35,850 bases of DNA, taken from contig JACQZJ010000004.1 of assembly GCA_016213895.1 (NCBI GenBank), positions 1 through 35,850 on the forward strand. The letters run 5' to 3'. This DNA is from Planctomycetota bacterium. Its GTDB lineage: Bacteria; Planctomycetota; B15-G4; JADJEK01. Of the stretch, positions 10,463 through 18,751 are shown one piece after another (the stretch's first letter is position 1; each line of letters begins with the position of its first letter). A model generated the notes under the pieces. That model searched no databases, was not told the origin of the DNA, and saw only the letters and a list, made by a program, of their open reading frames with translations. The position numbers and the translations under genes were made by a program.

Positions 10463-12727
10463 GTGCTTCTACCCCGCCGGTGTGCTGGTCTGGAATCGGC
10501 AGCCGATGTCCAGCGGTGGACATCGGCTGCTCATGCCCGATGCGCGCGCGCCTTGCTCGTCTGCTTCTCCTTCCTGGCCGCAGCCTGCTCGAAGGAGCGC
10601 GCTCCCAAGCCGCAGGAGCACGCCGGCTCCGAGTCCTGCCGCGAGTGCCACGAGGAGGCCCACGACCTCTGGCGCGCGAGCCATCACGCCCTGGCCGAGC
10701 GGCCGTTCCGCCTCGATGTGGACGCAGCCGCCTTTCGCGGCAAGGGCGCGATCCGCCACGGTTCGCTCGAGAGCAGCGTGGCCCTCGAGGACGGCGAGCC
10801 GCGCATCCTCACCGCCGGGTTGGACGGTGCGCTCAGGCCCTTTCCCGTGTCGCGCGTGATCGGCGAGTTTCCGCTGCGCCAGTTCCTCGTGCCCGCGGAG
10901 CGCGGGCGCTTCCAGGTCGCGGCCCTTTCCTACGACCCCGCCAAAGACGAGTGGTTCGACGTCTTCGGGGAGGAGGACCGCCGGCCCCACGAGTGGGGCT
11001 TCTGGCTGAACCGCGGCATGAACTGGAACTCGATGTGCGCGGACTGCCACAACACGAACCTGCGCAAGAACTATGACGCGGCGGCGGACGCGTACCGCAG
11101 CGAGTTCACGGAGCTGGGCGTGGGCTGCGAGGCATGCCACGGCCCGAGCGGAGAGCACGTCGTCTGGCAGCGCGCGAATCGTGACGAGGAGGACGACCCG
11201 ACGCTGCCCTGGCTGCGCGTGCCCGAGGACGTGAACGCCTGGGTGGACACGTGCGGCGCCTGCCATTCGCGCCGCATGGAGCTGGTCGAGACCTATGACC
11301 CGGCCGCTCCCTTCCTCGAGGCGTTCCTCCCCGAGCTGCTCGACCTCTCCGAGGTGTACTACGCCGACTCCCAGGTGCACGACGAGGATTACGAGTACGT
11401 CTCGTTCCTCATGTCGCGCATGGGGCAGAGCGGCGAGGTGACCTGCCTGAGCTGCCACGAGCCGCACGGCGGAAAGCTGCGCGCCGCGGGAAACAAGCTG
11501 TGCATGGCGTGCCATCGGGACCAGCGGGGAACGATCCCGCCGATCGACCCGGCCGCGCACTCCCATCACGACGTCGCGCGGGAGGGCGGCTCGTGCGTAG
11601 GCTGCCACATGCCGCTCACCACGTACATGCAGCGCCATCCGCGCCGCGACCACGGCCTCACCATCCCGGATCCGTTGCTCACCAAGGAGCTCGGCATCCC
11701 GAACGCCTGCGGCCGCTGCCACGCGGAAGAGGGCGTCGACTGGGCGATCGAGGCCGTGGAGAAGTGGTACGGGGCGCGCATGGAGCGGCCGACGCGCATA
11801 CGGGCGCGTCTCGTGGCGCGCGCCAGGAGCCCGGCAGAAGACGCGGCGGCGCCGCTCATCGCGGCCTTGCCTGCCGAGAAGAGCCCGGTCTGGCGGGCGA
11901 CCTACGCGCTCCTGCTGGTGCGTTTCGCCGGGCAGGTCGAGGCGCGCGCCGCGCTCGCTTCCTTGCTCGCGGACTCTTCGCCCCTGGTCCGGGCCATGGC
12001 CGCGCGCGCGCTGGAGCTGCCCTGCGCGCGTTCGCGGCCGGCTCTCCTCGGCCTGCTCGAGGACCCGTGCCGCGCGGTGCGGGTGCAGGCGGCCTGGACG
12101 CTGCGCGCCGAGGTCGACCTCGCCTCGCGCGCCGGCCAGGACCTCTTGAACTACCTGGGGCAGAACGCGGACCAGCCCGCGGGAGTGATGATGGAGGCGA
12201 CGCTCCGGCTCGACCGGGGCGAGGTCGCGCGGGCGATCGAGCTCCTGCGCCTGGCCGTGGCGTGGGAGCCGAACTCGGCGGCCACGCATCAGAACCTCGC
12301 GATCGCGCTGAGCCGCGCCGGCAGGCCGCTCGAGGCGCTGCCGCACTGCGAGCGCGCCTGCGAGCTCATGCCCGAAGACGCGGCGCTCTGGTACTCGCTC
12401 GGCCTGGCGCGCGCGGAAGCCGGGGAGGGCCGCGGCGCCGTGGCGGCGCTCGAGACCTCCTGCCGGCTCGATCCCGGCCTGGCGCGCGCCTGGTACAACC
12501 TCGGCCTCGCGCGCAAGGAGCTGCTCGGCGACGCCGCGGGCGGGATCGCCGCGCTCGAGACCGCGACCGCGCTCGAGCCGGAATCGGCCGCCTTCTGGTA
12601 CGCCCTGGCCGCGCTCTGCCGGGACGTCGGCCTCGTGGAGCGCGCGGCAGAGGCCGCGGACCGCGCGCTCGCGGTCGATCCGAGCCACCGCTCCGCGCGC
12701 GCCCTCAGGGACTCGCTCGCGCGCTGA
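10463..12727 (+). CDS. Octaheme cytochrome c with HEAT and TPR repeats, exported
   Basis: About 754 residues if GTG 10463 is the start. TTG 10553, directly before the hydrophobic segment, is the alternative. A frameshift is also possible, because ATG 10540 begins a signal-like stretch in another frame. The hydrophobic segment ends in LAAAC, suggesting a lipoprotein. Eight CxxCH heme sites follow: CRECH, CADCH, CEACH, CGACH, CLSCH, CMACH, CVGCH and CGRCH (nt ~10636-11720). The piece VGCEACHGPSGEH is typical of cytochrome c554-like multiheme proteins. The second half has HEAT-like segments (~nt 11850-12110), then TPR units (WYSLGLARAEAGEG, AWYNLGLARKELLG). The likely role is periplasmic electron transfer in a complex, with the partner unknown. 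The stop codon begins copy B of a 61-bp repeat. A truncated copy of its TPR end lies at 16748-17130. Confidence 0.88.
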   Translation: MLLPRRCAGLESAADVQRWTSAAHARCARALLVCFSFLAAACSKERAPKPQEHAGSESCRECHEEAHDLWRASHHALAERPFRLDVDAAAFRGKGAIRHGSLESSVALEDGEPRILTAGLDGALRPFPVSRVIGEFPLRQFLVPAERGRFQVAALSYDPAKDEWFDVFGEEDRRPHEWGFWLNRGMNWNSMCADCHNTNLRKNYDAAADAYRSEFTELGVGCEACHGPSGEHVVWQRANRDEEDDPTLPWLRVPEDVNAWVDTCGACHSRRMELVETYDPAAPFLEAFLPELLDLSEVYYADSQVHDEDYEYVSFLMSRMGQSGEVTCLSCHEPHGGKLRAAGNKLCMACHRDQRGTIPPIDPAAHSHHDVAREGGSCVGCHMPLTTYMQRHPRRDHGLTIPDPLLTKELGIPNACGRCHAEEGVDWAIEAVEKWYGARMERPTRIRARLVARARSPAEDAAAPLIAALPAEKSPVWRATYALLLVRFAGQVEARAALASLLADSSPLVRAMAARALELPCARSRPALLGLLEDPCRAVRVQAAWTLRAEVDLASRAGQDLLNYLGQNADQPAGVMMEATLRLDRGEVARAIELLRLAVAWEPNSAATHQNLAIALSRAGRPLEALPHCERACELMPEDAALWYSLGLARAEAGEGRGAVAALETSCRLDPGLARAWYNLGLARKELLGDAAGGIAALETATALEPESAAFWYALAALCRDVGLVERAAEAADRALAVDPSHRSARALRDSLAR
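10499..10530 (+). promoter_or_regulatory. Perfect 14-bp inverted repeat near the cytochrome start
   Basis: GCAGCCGATGTCCA (10499-10512), loop GCGG, then TGGACATCGGCTGC (10517-10530): a perfect 14-bp palindrome. It lies 36 bases after the possible GTG start and 22 bases before the possible TTG start of the cytochrome gene. If TTG is used it is a stable leader hairpin or an operator; if GTG is used it is inside the coding region. Its perfection argues for a regulatory role and for the downstream start. Confidence 0.55.
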
Positions 12728-12785
12728 GCCTCTCCGCAGGAGAAGCTGATCCGGAATCCACGATTCTCAGGCGTGCTGCTCGACC
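12725..12785 (+). repeat. 61-bp stop-codon-linked repeat, copy B
   Basis: Second copy of the element at 1085-1145 (52/61 identical, no gaps), starting with the TGA of the cytochrome gene. Here the predicted hairpin is TCTCC-GCA-GGAGA, flanked by AGC/GCT with one mismatch. A second small stem follows, GAATC-CAC-GATTC. Confidence 0.75.
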
Positions 12786-12933: not shown

Positions 12934-14247
12934 TCACGGCTTGTTCAAGAGCTTCGCGTCGAGCAGGCGCGCGGTGATCATGACCTCCCTGGAACCGTTC
13001 AGCCGGCTGACGATCATTCTTCCACCCAGGTCATCCACCGTGGAGTAGTAGAAGTTCCACTTGCTCGGAGGCCGCGTGTGATGAATCACGACCGAGGCCT
13101 CGATCTCCTCCGGGTGTAAGCGAGCCTCCCGATACGTTCCCATCACGGCCTCTTGTCCTGGTCCATTCACAGACCAGTAGGACAACTGGCCTCCTCCCTG
13201 CAGCACGATGCCCCTTTGATCCAGCCATCCCGCGCTCCCTATCATGCCGCCCGCGTCGAACTCGACCAGCAACTGGTAGGTCCCGGGGTACAGGGACAAA
13301 ACGGCCTGCTCGAGCACCTTCGTTCCGAGCCTGCCGTGCGGCTCCTCCGCATCGCTCGAGTAGCCCCTTCCCCTCAACCTCACGCTGTAGCGCCACGGCA
13401 CGGTGACCACGTCGCCCGGATCGGTGAGGGTTCCCTCCCCGAACTGGATCATCCCGAATGGCCCCCAGGGAAAGCGCACCACGCCCCCTGAACCTCCCAG
13501 GGCCAGCAGGTAGCTTCCGTCCGAGGCCAAGCACTGCCCTTCCGGACTCGGGAAGTAGTCGACCAGCGCGCCGCCCGTCTCGGCGTAGGCATTCCACGCC
13601 CGGAGCTCATCCGTGGACGGTACGGTCACGAGCACGATCCAATCTCCGAGAAAGAGGAGGTCGCTCGCGGGCCCGCTCACCGGGAGCGGGCCTCCCACCA
13701 CCTCGCCCGCGTCGTCCATGCCGTACACGGTTGAGGCCTCCTCGGAGGCGACCCAGACTCTTCCCGCGGGATCCAGGGCGACGCCGATGGGTCCACCAAG
13801 GCCCGGCGGGCAGGGAATCACGGATTCCGTGCTTCCGTCCAGTCCGAGAACGACGACGGAGTCATTCCCATGGGACGCCACGATCAGTCGTCCGGACGCC
13901 CCCACGGTCACTCCCCTGGGGCTGACGAGGGAACCCGGGTTCGCCTGCCGCTCGATCGCCCCGTCACCGGAAATGCGGAAGATGTCTCCGCTCCCGGAGG
14001 CCACGACCACCAGGCGGCCGTCGAGGCCGAACGCAAGTCCCCACGGCTCGGAAAGGCCCGCTTGCCCCTCTCCCAGGGTCCGGACCAGCTCACCGCCTTC
14101 GTCGTACTCCTGGATCACGTCCGCGCCGCGATCCGCCACCAGTACGTGGCCGGCGCGAAACTCCTCGGCCCGAGGCGGGGAATCCGTGATGGCAAGCGCC
14201 GGAGCGCAGATCAGGACGATGGCGGGAAGAAGCCACATGGCCGTCAC
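12934..14247 (-). CDS. Secreted beta-propeller (NHL/SMP-30-like) protein
   Basis: A 437-residue exported protein. Start GTG 14247; ATG 14238 is an alternative three codons on. The signal peptide is MWLLPAIVLICAPALA. From about residue 30 to 270 there are repeated strands of the form G-x-VLVADRGADVIQEYD, GLAFGLDGRLVVV, GVTVGASGRLIVAS and GVALDPAGRVWVAS, as in NHL-type six-bladed propellers. The rest (about 290-437) is a beta-rich domain I do not recognise. The GTG start overlaps the TGA of the upstream protease gene (GTGA), and no ribosome site is visible, so translation is probably coupled to the protease. That makes it a candidate partner or inhibitor/scaffold of the protease. Its base composition is less GC-rich than the flanking genes, as in the protease. 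Confidence 0.8.
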   Translation of the reverse strand: MTAMWLLPAIVLICAPALAITDSPPRAEEFRAGHVLVADRGADVIQEYDEGGELVRTLGEGQAGLSEPWGLAFGLDGRLVVVASGSGDIFRISGDGAIERQANPGSLVSPRGVTVGASGRLIVASHGNDSVVVLGLDGSTESVIPCPPGLGGPIGVALDPAGRVWVASEEASTVYGMDDAGEVVGGPLPVSGPASDLLFLGDWIVLVTVPSTDELRAWNAYAETGGALVDYFPSPEGQCLASDGSYLLALGGSGGVVRFPWGPFGMIQFGEGTLTDPGDVVTVPWRYSVRLRGRGYSSDAEEPHGRLGTKVLEQAVLSLYPGTYQLLVEFDAGGMIGSAGWLDQRGIVLQGGGQLSYWSVNGPGQEAVMGTYREARLHPEEIEASVVIHHTRPPSKWNFYYSTVDDLGGRMIVSRLNGSREVMITARLLDAKLLNKP

Positions 14248-16194
14248 TCAGTAGTGAGAATGAACTGGTCGACATACAGGCCAAACGGAATGACCTTCGA
14301 GGACGGCACCTCCGGGCGGACCCGAACGCGACACCTCACGGCCCCGGTCGGGCTCTTGACGTGAGCGTGCACCTCGTCGGTCACGTGGAAGGTGTGCTCG
14401 AAATCCACGCCCTCGAATTCGGGCACCCACGTCTTCGCCTTGCCCCACTTCTCGTATTCGTAGTTGTAGAACCTGACCTCGATCCTGCGCGACTCATCAT
14501 CGACGCTGGCCAAGTGACCCCTGAGAGTAAGACTGATGTGCTGGTTCGGGAGCTCCGCCGCGAAGTACCTGACATGGAACTCGGCCTGATGCTTCTTATT
14601 GACGAGAACCGACTTGGCGAGAAGCGCGGCGCCGTCATCGCTCGAGACGTAGGCGAGCGCGTCGCACTGGTCGTCGACGTCCTTCAACTGAATGGGCGTC
14701 CCATCAACAGGGCCTTCCGGAGTGTACAGGGCGACGTTGTCTGCATATTCTCCGTATGCCTTCAGACGATGCGGCGCCCAGGGGACGAGCCCGGAACAGA
14801 TGGGGCCAGCGGGAAGTGAGTCGAGGGCGTCCTGGATCGACGCGTCGAAGTCGACTGTGCCGTACTTCGACGGCTTCTCTGCGTACGGATCACCGTTGTC
14901 CCGGATGGTGGGATACGCACCCTGGAAGATGAAGGCGCGCACGTCCTCCGTGTCTGCCAGTGGGAGCATGGCCTTGAGCAGACCGGCCAGGGCCGCAACG
15001 TGCGGTGAGGCCTGGGAGGTGCCGCTCTTGCTGCCGTACTGGGCGCCAGGAGTGGTTGACCACACGTTCCAGCCGTGCGCGCCCACCTCGACCTTGGGGC
15101 CCCAGCTTGAGAAGACCATCTTGTAGTTGAAGTAATGCGGTGGAATGAGGTTGTAGCCCTGCACGGCGCCAACGGTGATGACGTCGGGATCGCTGTTGGG
15201 CAACGGGATGTCCTGGGCCTTTGTCTTGTAGACTCCATCGATGCCGTCGGGCTCGTCCGCGTTTCCGGCAGAGCCGACGAGTACCATCCTCTGGTCGACA
15301 GCGTTGTCGATGGCCTCGGCGAGCTTTCCGGAGGTGGGCGCGGACAGGCCGAATGACATGTTCACGACCATCGCGTCATGGTGTCGGGCGTAGTTGATGG
15401 CCTTGGCCGTCAACTCGGGAGTCACCTCGAGGTCGCCGTTGGTCTTCCAGATTTTGAGAGGGAGGATGCGTATCACGGGCGGCTGACCGGAAATCGAAGG
15501 TGAGCAACTGGCTACTCCGACGCCGTTACCCGTGATAGCGGCGATGATGCCAGCCACGTGGGTTCCGTGGCCGGTCTGGTCATTGGGATTGCTGGAAGAC
15601 GTGAAGTTCTTGCCATTTGGGTCGATGCGGCCGGCGAGGTCCGGGTGAGTCGGGGAGATGCCGGTGTCGATGACGGCTACAATCACTTGCGCGAGACTTG
15701 GCGGCAGGTGCCCCCAGGATTGTGTGAGATTGTGCAGTTCAAAGGCGTGCTGTCCGGGCGATATGTAGATGGGATCGTTGGGCGAGTCGAACTGGACGTC
15801 GAGAAGCCCGCCGGGTACCATTGTGTAGGCGTGGCAGACGACGTCGCTGAGGGTGTGGGGAGAAGCTGGCGACAGACGCTCCTGGCTCTCGACAAGGTCC
15901 AGGAAGTCGGCGAGCTGCTGGCGGTCAGGGAAGCTGAAGTACATGCCCAGCTCGTCTTCGAGCATGAGGGTGGCGTCGTGTTCAGACGCGAGGTCGATGA
16001 TTGCGTCAGTCCAGGAGGCGGCCTCGTCGGGGTTGCTGGTTGCCGTGCGATCTACGAAGCAGACATCGTACTCGCGGGGGTCGAACGGGACCTGGCCGGG
16101 CGCGAGCTGGCGAAAGGCGAGGAGGAGAACGACGGAGGGGATGGTCCGGAGGAATCTGGAGTGCCTGGTGAGGGGGAGGGGGGGGGGGGGGCAT
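14244..16194 (-). CDS. Secreted subtilisin-family (S8) serine protease, frame broken at a C tract after the start
   Basis: About 650 residues. The catalytic triad is visible: Asp in VIDTGI (15666-15668), His in GHGTHVAG (15567-15569) and Ser in SGTSQASPHVA (15015-15017). An N-terminal prodomain-like region (about 100 residues) precedes the catalytic domain. A beta-rich C-terminal region follows. A signal peptide-like stretch (FLRTIPSVVLLLAFRQLAPG) follows the start. The likely start is ATG 16194-16192, with AAGGGAA about ten bases upstream, but it is followed by 14 Cs (minus strand). With 14 it reads into a proline-rich dead frame; with 13 it joins the protease frame exactly. No other start with a ribosome site is in the protease frame. 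So the gene is either phase-variable (off here), frameshifted, or miscalled at the homopolymer. The downstream propeller gene overlaps by four bases. Confidence 0.85.
16178..16191. repeat. 14-base G/C homopolymer tract at the protease start
   Basis: Fourteen Gs on the plus strand (14 Cs on the coding strand) immediately after the ATG of the protease gene, with a further run of five after one A. This is the classic arrangement of slipped-strand phase variation. It is also a strong G-quadruplex candidate on the plus strand and a place where sequencing often miscounts. Confidence 0.9.
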
Positions 16195-16560
16195 GCGTAA
16201 TTTCCCTTGTTAAGTAAGCTACTTGGAGGGAGTGTAAGATGCCGGTTGACCGCTGGGCAAGAAGAATCGGGCTGGGCATGAGAGTCGCGGCGGGCCGGTG
16301 GGTCGGGCGAGGTTCCTCGGAGGGGCGGCGTGGGAGGGGCGTCCCCCGGGGGGTAGCCCCCTGCGTGAGGATGGTCGCCGTCCGGGGCTGGGCCCATGCG
16401 GCCCGAGAGGCGGGCCACGCCTATGGGGGTGGCGAGTCTAATCTCTGGAATGGGCTGCCCGGGGGCGAGGGGAGGGGTCGTGATGGAGTACTCGGGAGGA
16501 TTCAAGTAGTAGGTGATGCAGCGGCTGGCCGCTCCGGACGCGATCCGGGCCCAGGGCAGG
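16195..16560. other. Protease upstream region, no gene seen
   Basis: About 365 bases with purine-rich, G-rich plus strand and no supported coding frame. On the protease strand it holds the AAGGGAA ribosome site and a small palindrome, AAGTA-AGC-TACTT (16212-16224), that could be an operator. Promoter hexamers are not convincing. Confidence 0.45.
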
Positions 16561-16745
16561 ACGATGGAGGCGCTCGAGGGCCCGGCGCCGAGCGGCGAGG
16601 AAGCCTAGGACGTGCTCTCCGGCAAGGTGTGCGGTTCCGACTGGTTTCAGGGCGTCAAGCTGGCGGCGGCCGACGCAGACCGCGCCTGGACGCGGCCCAC
16701 AAGGTGAGCGGCCGGGCGAAGTACACCCAGGACGTCAAGGTGGAC
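16561..16745 (+). pseudogene. Decayed fragment of a molybdenum hydroxylase (2Fe-2S C-terminus joined to Mo-subunit N-terminus)
   Basis: The translation gives EGPAPSGEEA, an in-frame TAG at 16606-16608, then DVLSGKVCGSDWFQGVK. It aligns with the end of the intact 2Fe-2S subunit at 18839-19438 (NPRPSHEEV...ALSGNLCRCGSYQGIKK). From about 16676 another frame reads RPRLDAAHKVSGRAKYTQDV, matching the N-terminus of the intact Mo-cofactor subunit (TPRIDAADKVTGRAKYTQDV, nt 19501-19560). So this is the subunit junction of a second, degraded copy of the operon. Most cluster cysteines are lost, there is a stop, and it is cut off at 16745, where TPR sequence begins. Confidence 0.75.
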
Positions 16746-16747
16746 CA

Positions 16748-17130
16748 GTGGAGCTGCACCGCCTGGCCGCGGAGTGGGAGCCGAACTCGGCGGCGGTGCA
16801 GCAGAGGCTCGCGGTGGCGCTCTGCCGCGCCGGGAAGACGCTCGAGGTGCTGCCGCACTGGGAGCAGGCCTGGGCGCTCTCGCCAGAGGACGCGGCGCTC
16901 CGGTTCTCGCTCGGTCTGGCGCGGGCCGAGGCCGGGGACGGCCCGGGCGCGGTGGCGGGGCGCGCCTGGTACAACCTCGGCCTGGCGCGCCACAGCATGC
17001 TCCAGGACGCGGCCGGCGGGATCGAAGCGCTGGAGAGGGCGACTGTGCTGCAGCCTGATTCCGCGGAGTTCTGCTGCGGCTTGGTCGTGCTCTGCCGCGA
17101 CGCCGGGCATGCCGAGCGGGCGTTCCTCGC
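16748..17130 (+). pseudogene. Truncated copy of the cytochrome's TPR domain
   Basis: Translation from 16748 (LAAEWEPNSAAVQQRLAVAL, LGLARAEAGDG, RAWYNLGLARHSM, DAAGGIEALE, VLCRDAGHAERA) closely follows the C-terminal TPR region of the octaheme cytochrome at nt ~12240-12690. It has an internal deletion of about a dozen residues between the second and third repeat, and lacks all heme sites and a secretion signal. It starts two bases after the hydroxylase fragment. The frame happens to stay open into the sigma-54 regulator at 17216, so a translated TPR-regulator fusion of 667 residues is possible. I favour a gene remnant because the regulator has its own ribosome site. Confidence 0.72.
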
Positions 17131-17172
17131 CGGGCAGCGCGGAACTCAGGGCATGGCAACGGTTGGCGCGAC

Positions 17173-17191
17173 GTGTACGTTGGATGTACAC
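17173..17191 (+). promoter_or_regulatory. Inverted repeat upstream of the sigma-54 regulator
   Basis: GTGTAC-GTTGGAT-GTACAC, a perfect 6-bp inverted repeat with a 7-base centre, 24 bases before the regulator's ATG and outside the TPR similarity. A possible operator or part of the promoter. Confidence 0.4.
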
Positions 17192-17215
17192 ACCCGGCCG
17201 AGCGGAGGCGCGCGC

Positions 17216-18751
17216 ATGGGCATCTTCGAGAAGGACGAGAGCGGACTCGCCGAGACGATTTCGCGCCTCGACTACTGCAACCCCTTCCTGCCGGAGCGGC
17301 TGGAGCTGGAGCGCAGTGCGCTCGGCCCCGACTTCCTCGGCTTCGAGCAGTTCCTGAACATCCGCCCGGAGAGCCCGCAGCAGCTCGAGGAGAATGTGCG
17401 GCGCCTTGTCGGGCGCGTGGGCACCGTGGTCGAAAGCGCGCGCCAGCGGCTCGCGCAGGGCGCTCCGGCCTCGGAGCGCGAGCGCGTCCTCTACGAGGAC
17501 CTGGCGCTCTTCTACCTCTACCACCGCTTCCACATGCAGTTCCGCGCGTGGATCTCCCACGCGCTCGCGGGCGGCGCACGGCGGCGCCTGGGCTTCTTCG
17601 GCGAGTTCGAGGAGGCCGCGCGCCACCTGTTCCTCGTGCCGGGCGTCGCCCTGCCGCACGACGATCCGCCGGAGCACCTCTTCGCCTTCTTCTTCCAGCT
17701 CAACCGCGCGTTCGTCAACATCTACCACCACATCGTGGGCGGCTCGATGGCGGCCGCGCGGCTGCGCGGCGCCATCTGGCAGTCGATCTTCACCCACGAC
17801 CTCAGGCGCTACCGCCGCACCCTGTACGAGCGCATGGGAGACATCGCGACCTTGGTCACCGGCCCGTCTGGCACGGGCAAGGAGCTGGTCGCGCGCGCGG
17901 TGGCCCTGTCGCGCTACATTCCCTTCGACGTCAAGCCGCGCGCCTTCAGCGAGGACTTCGCCAACTCCTTCCATCCCCTCAATCCGTCGGCGCTCTCGCC
18001 GACCCTCATCGAGTCGGAGCTGTTCGGCCACCGCCGCGGCGCCTTCACCGGCGCGCTCGAGGACAGGAAGGGCTGGCTCGAGGTCTGCAAGCCGCGGGGT
18101 ACGGTGTTCCTCGACGAGATCGGCGACCTCGACCCGGCGATCCAGGTGAAGCTCTTGCGCGTGCTGCAGACGCGGACCTTCCAGCGCCTCGGCGAGACCG
18201 AGACGCGGACGTTCCAGGGCAAGATCATCGCCGCGACCAACCGCGACCTCAGCGCCGCCCTGCGCCAGGGAGCGTTCCGGGAGGACTTCTTCTACCGGCT
18301 CTGCTCGGACATGATCGAGACGCCCTCCCTGGAGGAGCAGCTTGGTGGGAACCGCGACGAGCTGGAACTCCTGGTGCGCTTCATCGCGCGCCGCATGGCC
18401 GGCGACGAGGCGGACGTCCTGACCGCCGAGGTCGTGAGCTGGATCGAGAAAGAGCTGGGGCTCGCCTATGACTGGCCGGGGAACTTCCGCGAGCTGGAAC
18501 AGTGCGTGCGCAACGTTCTCATTCGCAAGGAGTACCGTCCCACCCCACGCGGGGAAAGGGAGGGGGAGAACGCTTTCTTGCGGGCGTTCGGCCGCGGGGT
18601 GCTGACCGCGGAGCAGGTTCTCGACGGCTACTGCCGCCTGGTCCGCGACCGCAGCGGGACGCTCTCCGAGGCCGCGCGCCGCCTCGGCCTCGACCGCCGC
18701 ACGGTCAAGGCGCGGGCCGAACGGTCCTGCAGGGTGGAGCCGGCGGGCTGA
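17216..18751 (+). CDS. Sigma-54-dependent activator with a novel N-terminal domain
   Basis: A 511-residue protein. ATG 17216 is chosen because GGAGG lies eight bases upstream. Residues 1-200 form a helical domain with no receiver (REC), GAF or PAS signature, including the aromatic segment LYHRFHMQF and a conserved-looking HHIVGGSMAAARLRG stretch. I cannot name this domain. The AAA+ domain follows with Walker A GPSGTGKE (216-223), GAFTGA (275-280) and Walker B VFLDEIGD (297-304), then sensor and PGNFRELEQ segments. A Fis-like helix-turn-helix ends it (SEAARRLGLDRRTVKA). The protein must therefore sense its signal through the unknown N-terminal domain rather than by phosphorylation. It lies directly before the molybdenum hydroxylase operon, whose upstream region has a sigma-54 promoter candidate, so it is the likely activator of that operon. 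Confidence 0.92.
   Translation: MGIFEKDESGLAETISRLDYCNPFLPERLELERSALGPDFLGFEQFLNIRPESPQQLEENVRRLVGRVGTVVESARQRLAQGAPASERERVLYEDLALFYLYHRFHMQFRAWISHALAGGARRRLGFFGEFEEAARHLFLVPGVALPHDDPPEHLFAFFFQLNRAFVNIYHHIVGGSMAAARLRGAIWQSIFTHDLRRYRRTLYERMGDIATLVTGPSGTGKELVARAVALSRYIPFDVKPRAFSEDFANSFHPLNPSALSPTLIESELFGHRRGAFTGALEDRKGWLEVCKPRGTVFLDEIGDLDPAIQVKLLRVLQTRTFQRLGETETRTFQGKIIAATNRDLSAALRQGAFREDFFYRLCSDMIETPSLEEQLGGNRDELELLVRFIARRMAGDEADVLTAEVVSWIEKELGLAYDWPGNFRELEQCVRNVLIRKEYRPTPRGEREGENAFLRAFGRGVLTAEQVLDGYCRLVRDRSGTLSEAARRLGLDRRTVKARAERSCRVEPAG

Follow-up and report, generated by a model that had tools for sequence, protein, structure and literature searches.

A C14 tract behind the start codon of a planctomycete secreted subtilase gene as a probable phase-variation switch

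A secreted subtilase gene of an uncultured planctomycete carries 14 cytosines directly behind its start codon and is probably (a chance of about two in three, judged from the sequence) a contingency locus whose translation is phase-variable through slipped-strand mispairing in this simple sequence repeat (SSR). The gene lies on the minus strand of a window of 35,850 nucleotides, which is the entire contig C170 of a GC-rich (70% GC) assembly of 5.5 Mb in 218 contigs, a fragmented MAG with N gaps. In the proposed switch, mispairing during replication would change the number of Cs behind the start codon: with 13 (or 10 or 16) Cs the ATG would read into the signal peptide and the protease (ON), and other lengths, the assembled 14 included, would yield a short peptide rich in proline (OFF), with translation of the coupled propeller gene downstream probably lowered too. 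A paralogous operon on contig C115 would switch independently via a heptamer repeat of its own, and the bacterium probably flips both sister proteases on and off at random. In the majority captured by the assembly the gene would be OFF, or a single base away from ON if the consensus is wrong. Slippage rate, reversibility and population state are the parts of this model that we infer.

The tract, its start codon and the encoded protease

The features are collected in Table 1. As the original prediction had it, exactly 14 Cs follow a minus-strand ATG preceded by AAGGGAA, and this is the only ATG with a ribosome site, since the other in-frame upstream starts (ATG 16397, GTG 16418 and TTG 16505) all lack a Shine-Dalgarno (SD) sequence. 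Translation bore out the frame relation that had been proposed: with 14 Cs the ATG frame begins MPPPPPPPHQALQIPP... and terminates at 62 aa, with 13 it begins MPPPPLPLTRHSRFLRTIPSVVLLLAFRQLAPGQVPFDP... and continues as the protease, and with 12 it is likewise out of the protease frame. GC content by codon position in the protease frame is.73/.64/.64 in the 200 nt before the tract, giving no coding signature, and a coding-like.65/.50/.88 just past it; because coding-type composition begins only at the tract, the start must lie there, with no credible start upstream. The sole hydrophobic, signal-peptide-like stretch is found in the 13-C frame, with an 11-residue hydropathy of 2.35 vs -0.31 in the C14 frame. 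A consensus promoter and terminator scan 5' of the tract, stricter than the by-eye search behind the promoter-like site in Table 1, found nothing.

The protease frame runs through 649 codons without an internal stop, in agreement with the earlier expectation that the rest of the gene bears no lesion. As in SSR contingency genes, a simple repeat of hypermutable type sits in the 5' coding region, right after the ATG, and a change in its length (12, 13 or 14 Cs) shifts the frame of a gene that is otherwise intact. The product belongs to the S8 (subtilase) family, as indicated by a match to Peptidase_S8 (PF00082, E=9e-45) and by an Asp/His/Ser triad (Asp176, His209 and Ser393) aligned with thermitase 1thm. 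Of the protein parts named beforehand, the signal peptide (by hydropathy, in the 13-C frame) and the intact triad stand; no prodomain family was matched, and "prodomain" can be used of residues ~34-135 by position only. The start of the downstream propeller gene is a GTG in a 4-nt overlap with the protease stop (GTGA), an alternative ATG lying at 14238. This overlap makes coupling of protease and propeller plausible, and it is from this that we infer the effect of the switch on the propeller.

Table 1. Positions of the features discussed; plain numbers refer to the window, L-numbers to loci elsewhere in the genome
Feature	Position	Strand	Basis
Start codon ATG	16192..16194	-	sequence; coding composition starts here
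AAGGGAA, Shine-Dalgarno-like	16202..16208	-	sequence
C14 tract, proposed slippage switch	16178..16191	-	sequence; run-length statistics
Promoter-like TTGCCC-18 nt-TACACT, ~37 nt 5' of ATG	16231..16260	-	by eye and pattern search; weak
Remainder of N-terminus, including signal-peptide-like stretch TRHSRFLRTIPSVVLLLAFRQLAPG	16095..16177	-	protease frame, hydropathy
Conserved exported part, S8 protease and C-terminal region with stop	14244..16094	-	paralogue homology begins at QVPFDP
Catalytic Asp, residue 176	15666..15668	-	alignment
Catalytic His, residue 209	15567..15569	-	alignment
Catalytic Ser, residue 393	15015..15017	-	alignment
Downstream secreted NHL/Vgb-type beta-propeller gene	12934..14247	-	profile match; C115 has same gene order
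Divergent neighbour ORF, sigma-54 activator domain and TPR protein	16517..18748 (start provisional)	+	ORF and profile match
DUF7948 loci (contigs C30, C56, C128, C133, C76)	L099:1502-1518, L168, L167, L164, L165		
Common-leader tracts (C13, C13, C11)	L098:1502-1514, L106:1497-1509, L112:1502-1512		

Long C tracts across the genome and in relatives

In 1.39 Mb of unselected sequence, G/C runs numbered 1294, 184, 36, 5 and 0 at lengths 5, 6, 7, 8 and 9, respectively, with one run each of lengths 10 and 11; their number drops ~6-fold per added base. Geometric extrapolation, which gives rough chance figures, predicts ~0.1 runs of at least 11 per genome, and 10 were found (in 9 places), all internal to contigs and 0 at contig ends; for runs of at least 14 the figures are 0.0005 expected and 4 found. 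Some 5' intergenic excess of C runs is to be expected without any function, because selection makes long C runs rarer in coding DNA. Missing mismatch repair was rejected as the cause of the long tracts, MutS being present; its presence would keep mutation rates down, which counts against switching.

The remaining long C tracts lie mostly at the 5' ends of genes that start with signal peptides. Those on C30 and C56 belong to the secreted DUF7948 family. In its six copies the TTGAC- and (C/T)ATCCT-like boxes (-35- and -10-like) are separated by a C run whose length varies from 0 to 17. This arrangement resembles promoter-spacing phase variation. On C26, C103 and C211 a common 5' leader with 13, 13 and 11 Cs precedes genes for secreted proteins, and on C11 one long C tract stands in front of a signal-peptide ORF; an Rfam search of leaders, these three included, and of tract loci gave no match. 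Two further repeats are on C39 and C67: a C15(CT)7 repeat on C39 (L100:1502-1530) lies in frame within a methyltransferase gene and is a candidate for switching from the ON state, and a C13-T-C15 repeat on C67 (L102:1502-1530) lies in the 5' portion of a gene for a GDSL hydrolase, of which the usual N-terminus is not evident.

A sister genome, G001, from another species of the same genus, was deposited as a MAG of the Planctomycetota under the name "Phycisphaera mikurensis isolate FI88_71_9", which we take at phylum level only; its matches and their places are identical to those of G294. It has a single run of at least 11 (L300:1835-1845), in the leader orthologous to that of C26; the leader sequence is otherwise strongly conserved, and the run counts 11 Cs in G001 and 13 in the present genome. 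That this tract is kept at a different length argues that long C tracts are real, inherited and length-changing. G001 also holds several copies, at 89-94% identity, of a ~55-bp intergenic stretch of the window (12719-12773), which is a dispersed repeat. Elsewhere in the phylum, genomes have many poly-C runs within the first 100 bases of contigs, and these are probably artefacts of sequencing or assembly. Poly-C counts from other MAGs were left out as evidence because many lie at contig ends, a caution for any MAG survey of poly-C runs.

The protease itself has no orthologue in the sister genome and none was found in named genomes, and a search of 294 genomes of the phylum at E<=1e-40 returned only the two copies of this genome. 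The suggested check of relatives for the same tract thus met no homologues in these genomes, and the paralogue has the heptamer instead. Next to the propeller homologues of the sister genome no adjoining S8 gene was seen, and on C420 it is a different gene that precedes the homologue.

A paralogous operon and the competing readings

The protease-propeller pair has one other copy in the genome, on C115, with 76% protein identity. The C115 protease starts at a minus-strand ATG (L029:8342) with GGAG in front, and the homologue is similarly organised in that a perfect heptamer array, CGCCTCT x4.9 (L029:8295-8328), begins 14 nt after this ATG. At the observed number of heptamers the ATG is out of frame and its reading frame runs into a stop after 43 codons; 3 or 6 full units would give MKRVNRLSPLASRLTATFWALCVAACAMQASALA-QVPFDP and so restore the signal peptide. 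No other 7-mer array of at least 3.3 copies occurs in 1.68 Mb sampled from the genome, and for any one stretch of 60 nt behind a start codon the probability of touching a repeat of this sort is roughly 2e-4. CGCCTCT was also considered as a dispersed repeat and rejected, as it is present only at C115. Homology of the two proteases starts at the exported part (QVPFDP) and their 5' ends are not homologous, so the two repeats arose separately. Over 614 codons, in which the genes show a two-codon difference and a frameshift in neither, the NG86 method gave a dN of 0.16, a dS of 1.15 and an omega of ~0.14; purifying selection acts on both proteases.

Each of the two copies appears to be OFF, a state that could also result from miscounting (for C170) or decay. 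It is unlikely, although this alternative deserves the most weight, that the true tract has 13 Cs and was miscounted in short-read assembly, the gene being simply on with no biological switching. Homopolymers of 14 bases are error-prone in a consensus, the assembly is a fragmented one, and poly-C runs in other MAGs of the phylum are often placed as artefacts are. However, all tracts of at least 11 in this genome are internal to contigs, the C26 leader tract is kept in a second, independent assembly, and a tract of truly 13 Cs would still be hypermutable. Furthermore, as both family members carry a different repeat of hypermutable type between start codon and signal peptide, homopolymer miscounting cannot explain C115. 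The original prediction had left the gene as either phase-variable or miscounted; phase variation is now much the stronger of the two, since the C115 repeat, in the same position and not homopolymer-prone, is also off, and for C170 taken singly an OFF state and a one-base consensus error are inseparable.

That both genes are recently disabled pseudogenes would agree with their both being out of frame, and the DUF7948 family does include broken copies here (C128 frameshifted through a deletion, C133 with one TAG). We regard this as very unlikely: purifying selection and the lack of a frameshift disfavour decay, both triads are intact, and the sole frame problem of each gene falls inside its repeat, with no other lesion in 614 codons. 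There is also a slim chance that the gene is off in DNA and is expressed via slippage during transcription or translation of the C run, as RNA polymerase and ribosomes can slip on long homopolymers and the downstream region is under selection, but the established cases are mostly A/T runs (PMC3711429) and the C115 heptamer would be left unexplained. Barely credible is a start upstream (ATG 16397 or TTG 16505) from which translation passes the tract in frame without any switch: the frame is open from 16604, but these starts have no SD, the composition before the tract is not coding-like, the promoter-like site would fall inside the coding region, the signal peptide would be buried, and the paralogue has stops in the corresponding region.

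Known switches and the meaning of a probably switched protease pair

The nearest known counterpart of the proposed switch is nalP of the meningococcus, in which a poly-C tract within the gene switches a secreted subtilisin (PMC5472700). NalP (AspA) of Neisseria meningitidis is an autotransporter and cleaves other proteins of the cell surface. The present protease shows no sign of an autotransporter domain, Pfam finding S8 only and no C-terminal beta-barrel, and identity as NalP was therefore rejected; further differences are the phylum, the pairing of the gene with a propeller gene and the placing of the tract right against the start codon. In autA and autB, short repeats of AAGC units come directly after the start codon and switch the reading frame of a protein that is exported (PMC5472700). 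The position of the repeat and the export of the product are alike in our case, whereas the units are C and CGCCTCT and the products are unrelated. In the opc promoter of Neisseria, the length of a poly-C tract sets expression, with 11 vs 12 Cs (PMC3447861). The DUF7948 family, with its C runs placed between boxes resembling -35 and -10 elements, is similar to this promoter type, which differs from the translational type at 16178.

Most of what is known of SSR phase variation comes from pathogens adapted to a host, where surface proteins are flipped randomly. We raise only tentatively, as somewhat doubtful, a genome-wide phasome in which C tracts and the heptamer would independently control many secreted proteins, the sister proteases with their different repeats among them, at the three levels of frame, promoter spacing and 5' leader. 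If true, this would place a contingency system within a phylum for which a limited search of open papers found no described case of SSR phase variation. Sister operons with different repeats in the same position would indicate a selected strategy for exported enzymes outside such hosts, and the protease pair would be tractable for asking which secreted function merits random switching, for example because the enzymes are shared public goods or because they expose the cell to phage or grazers.
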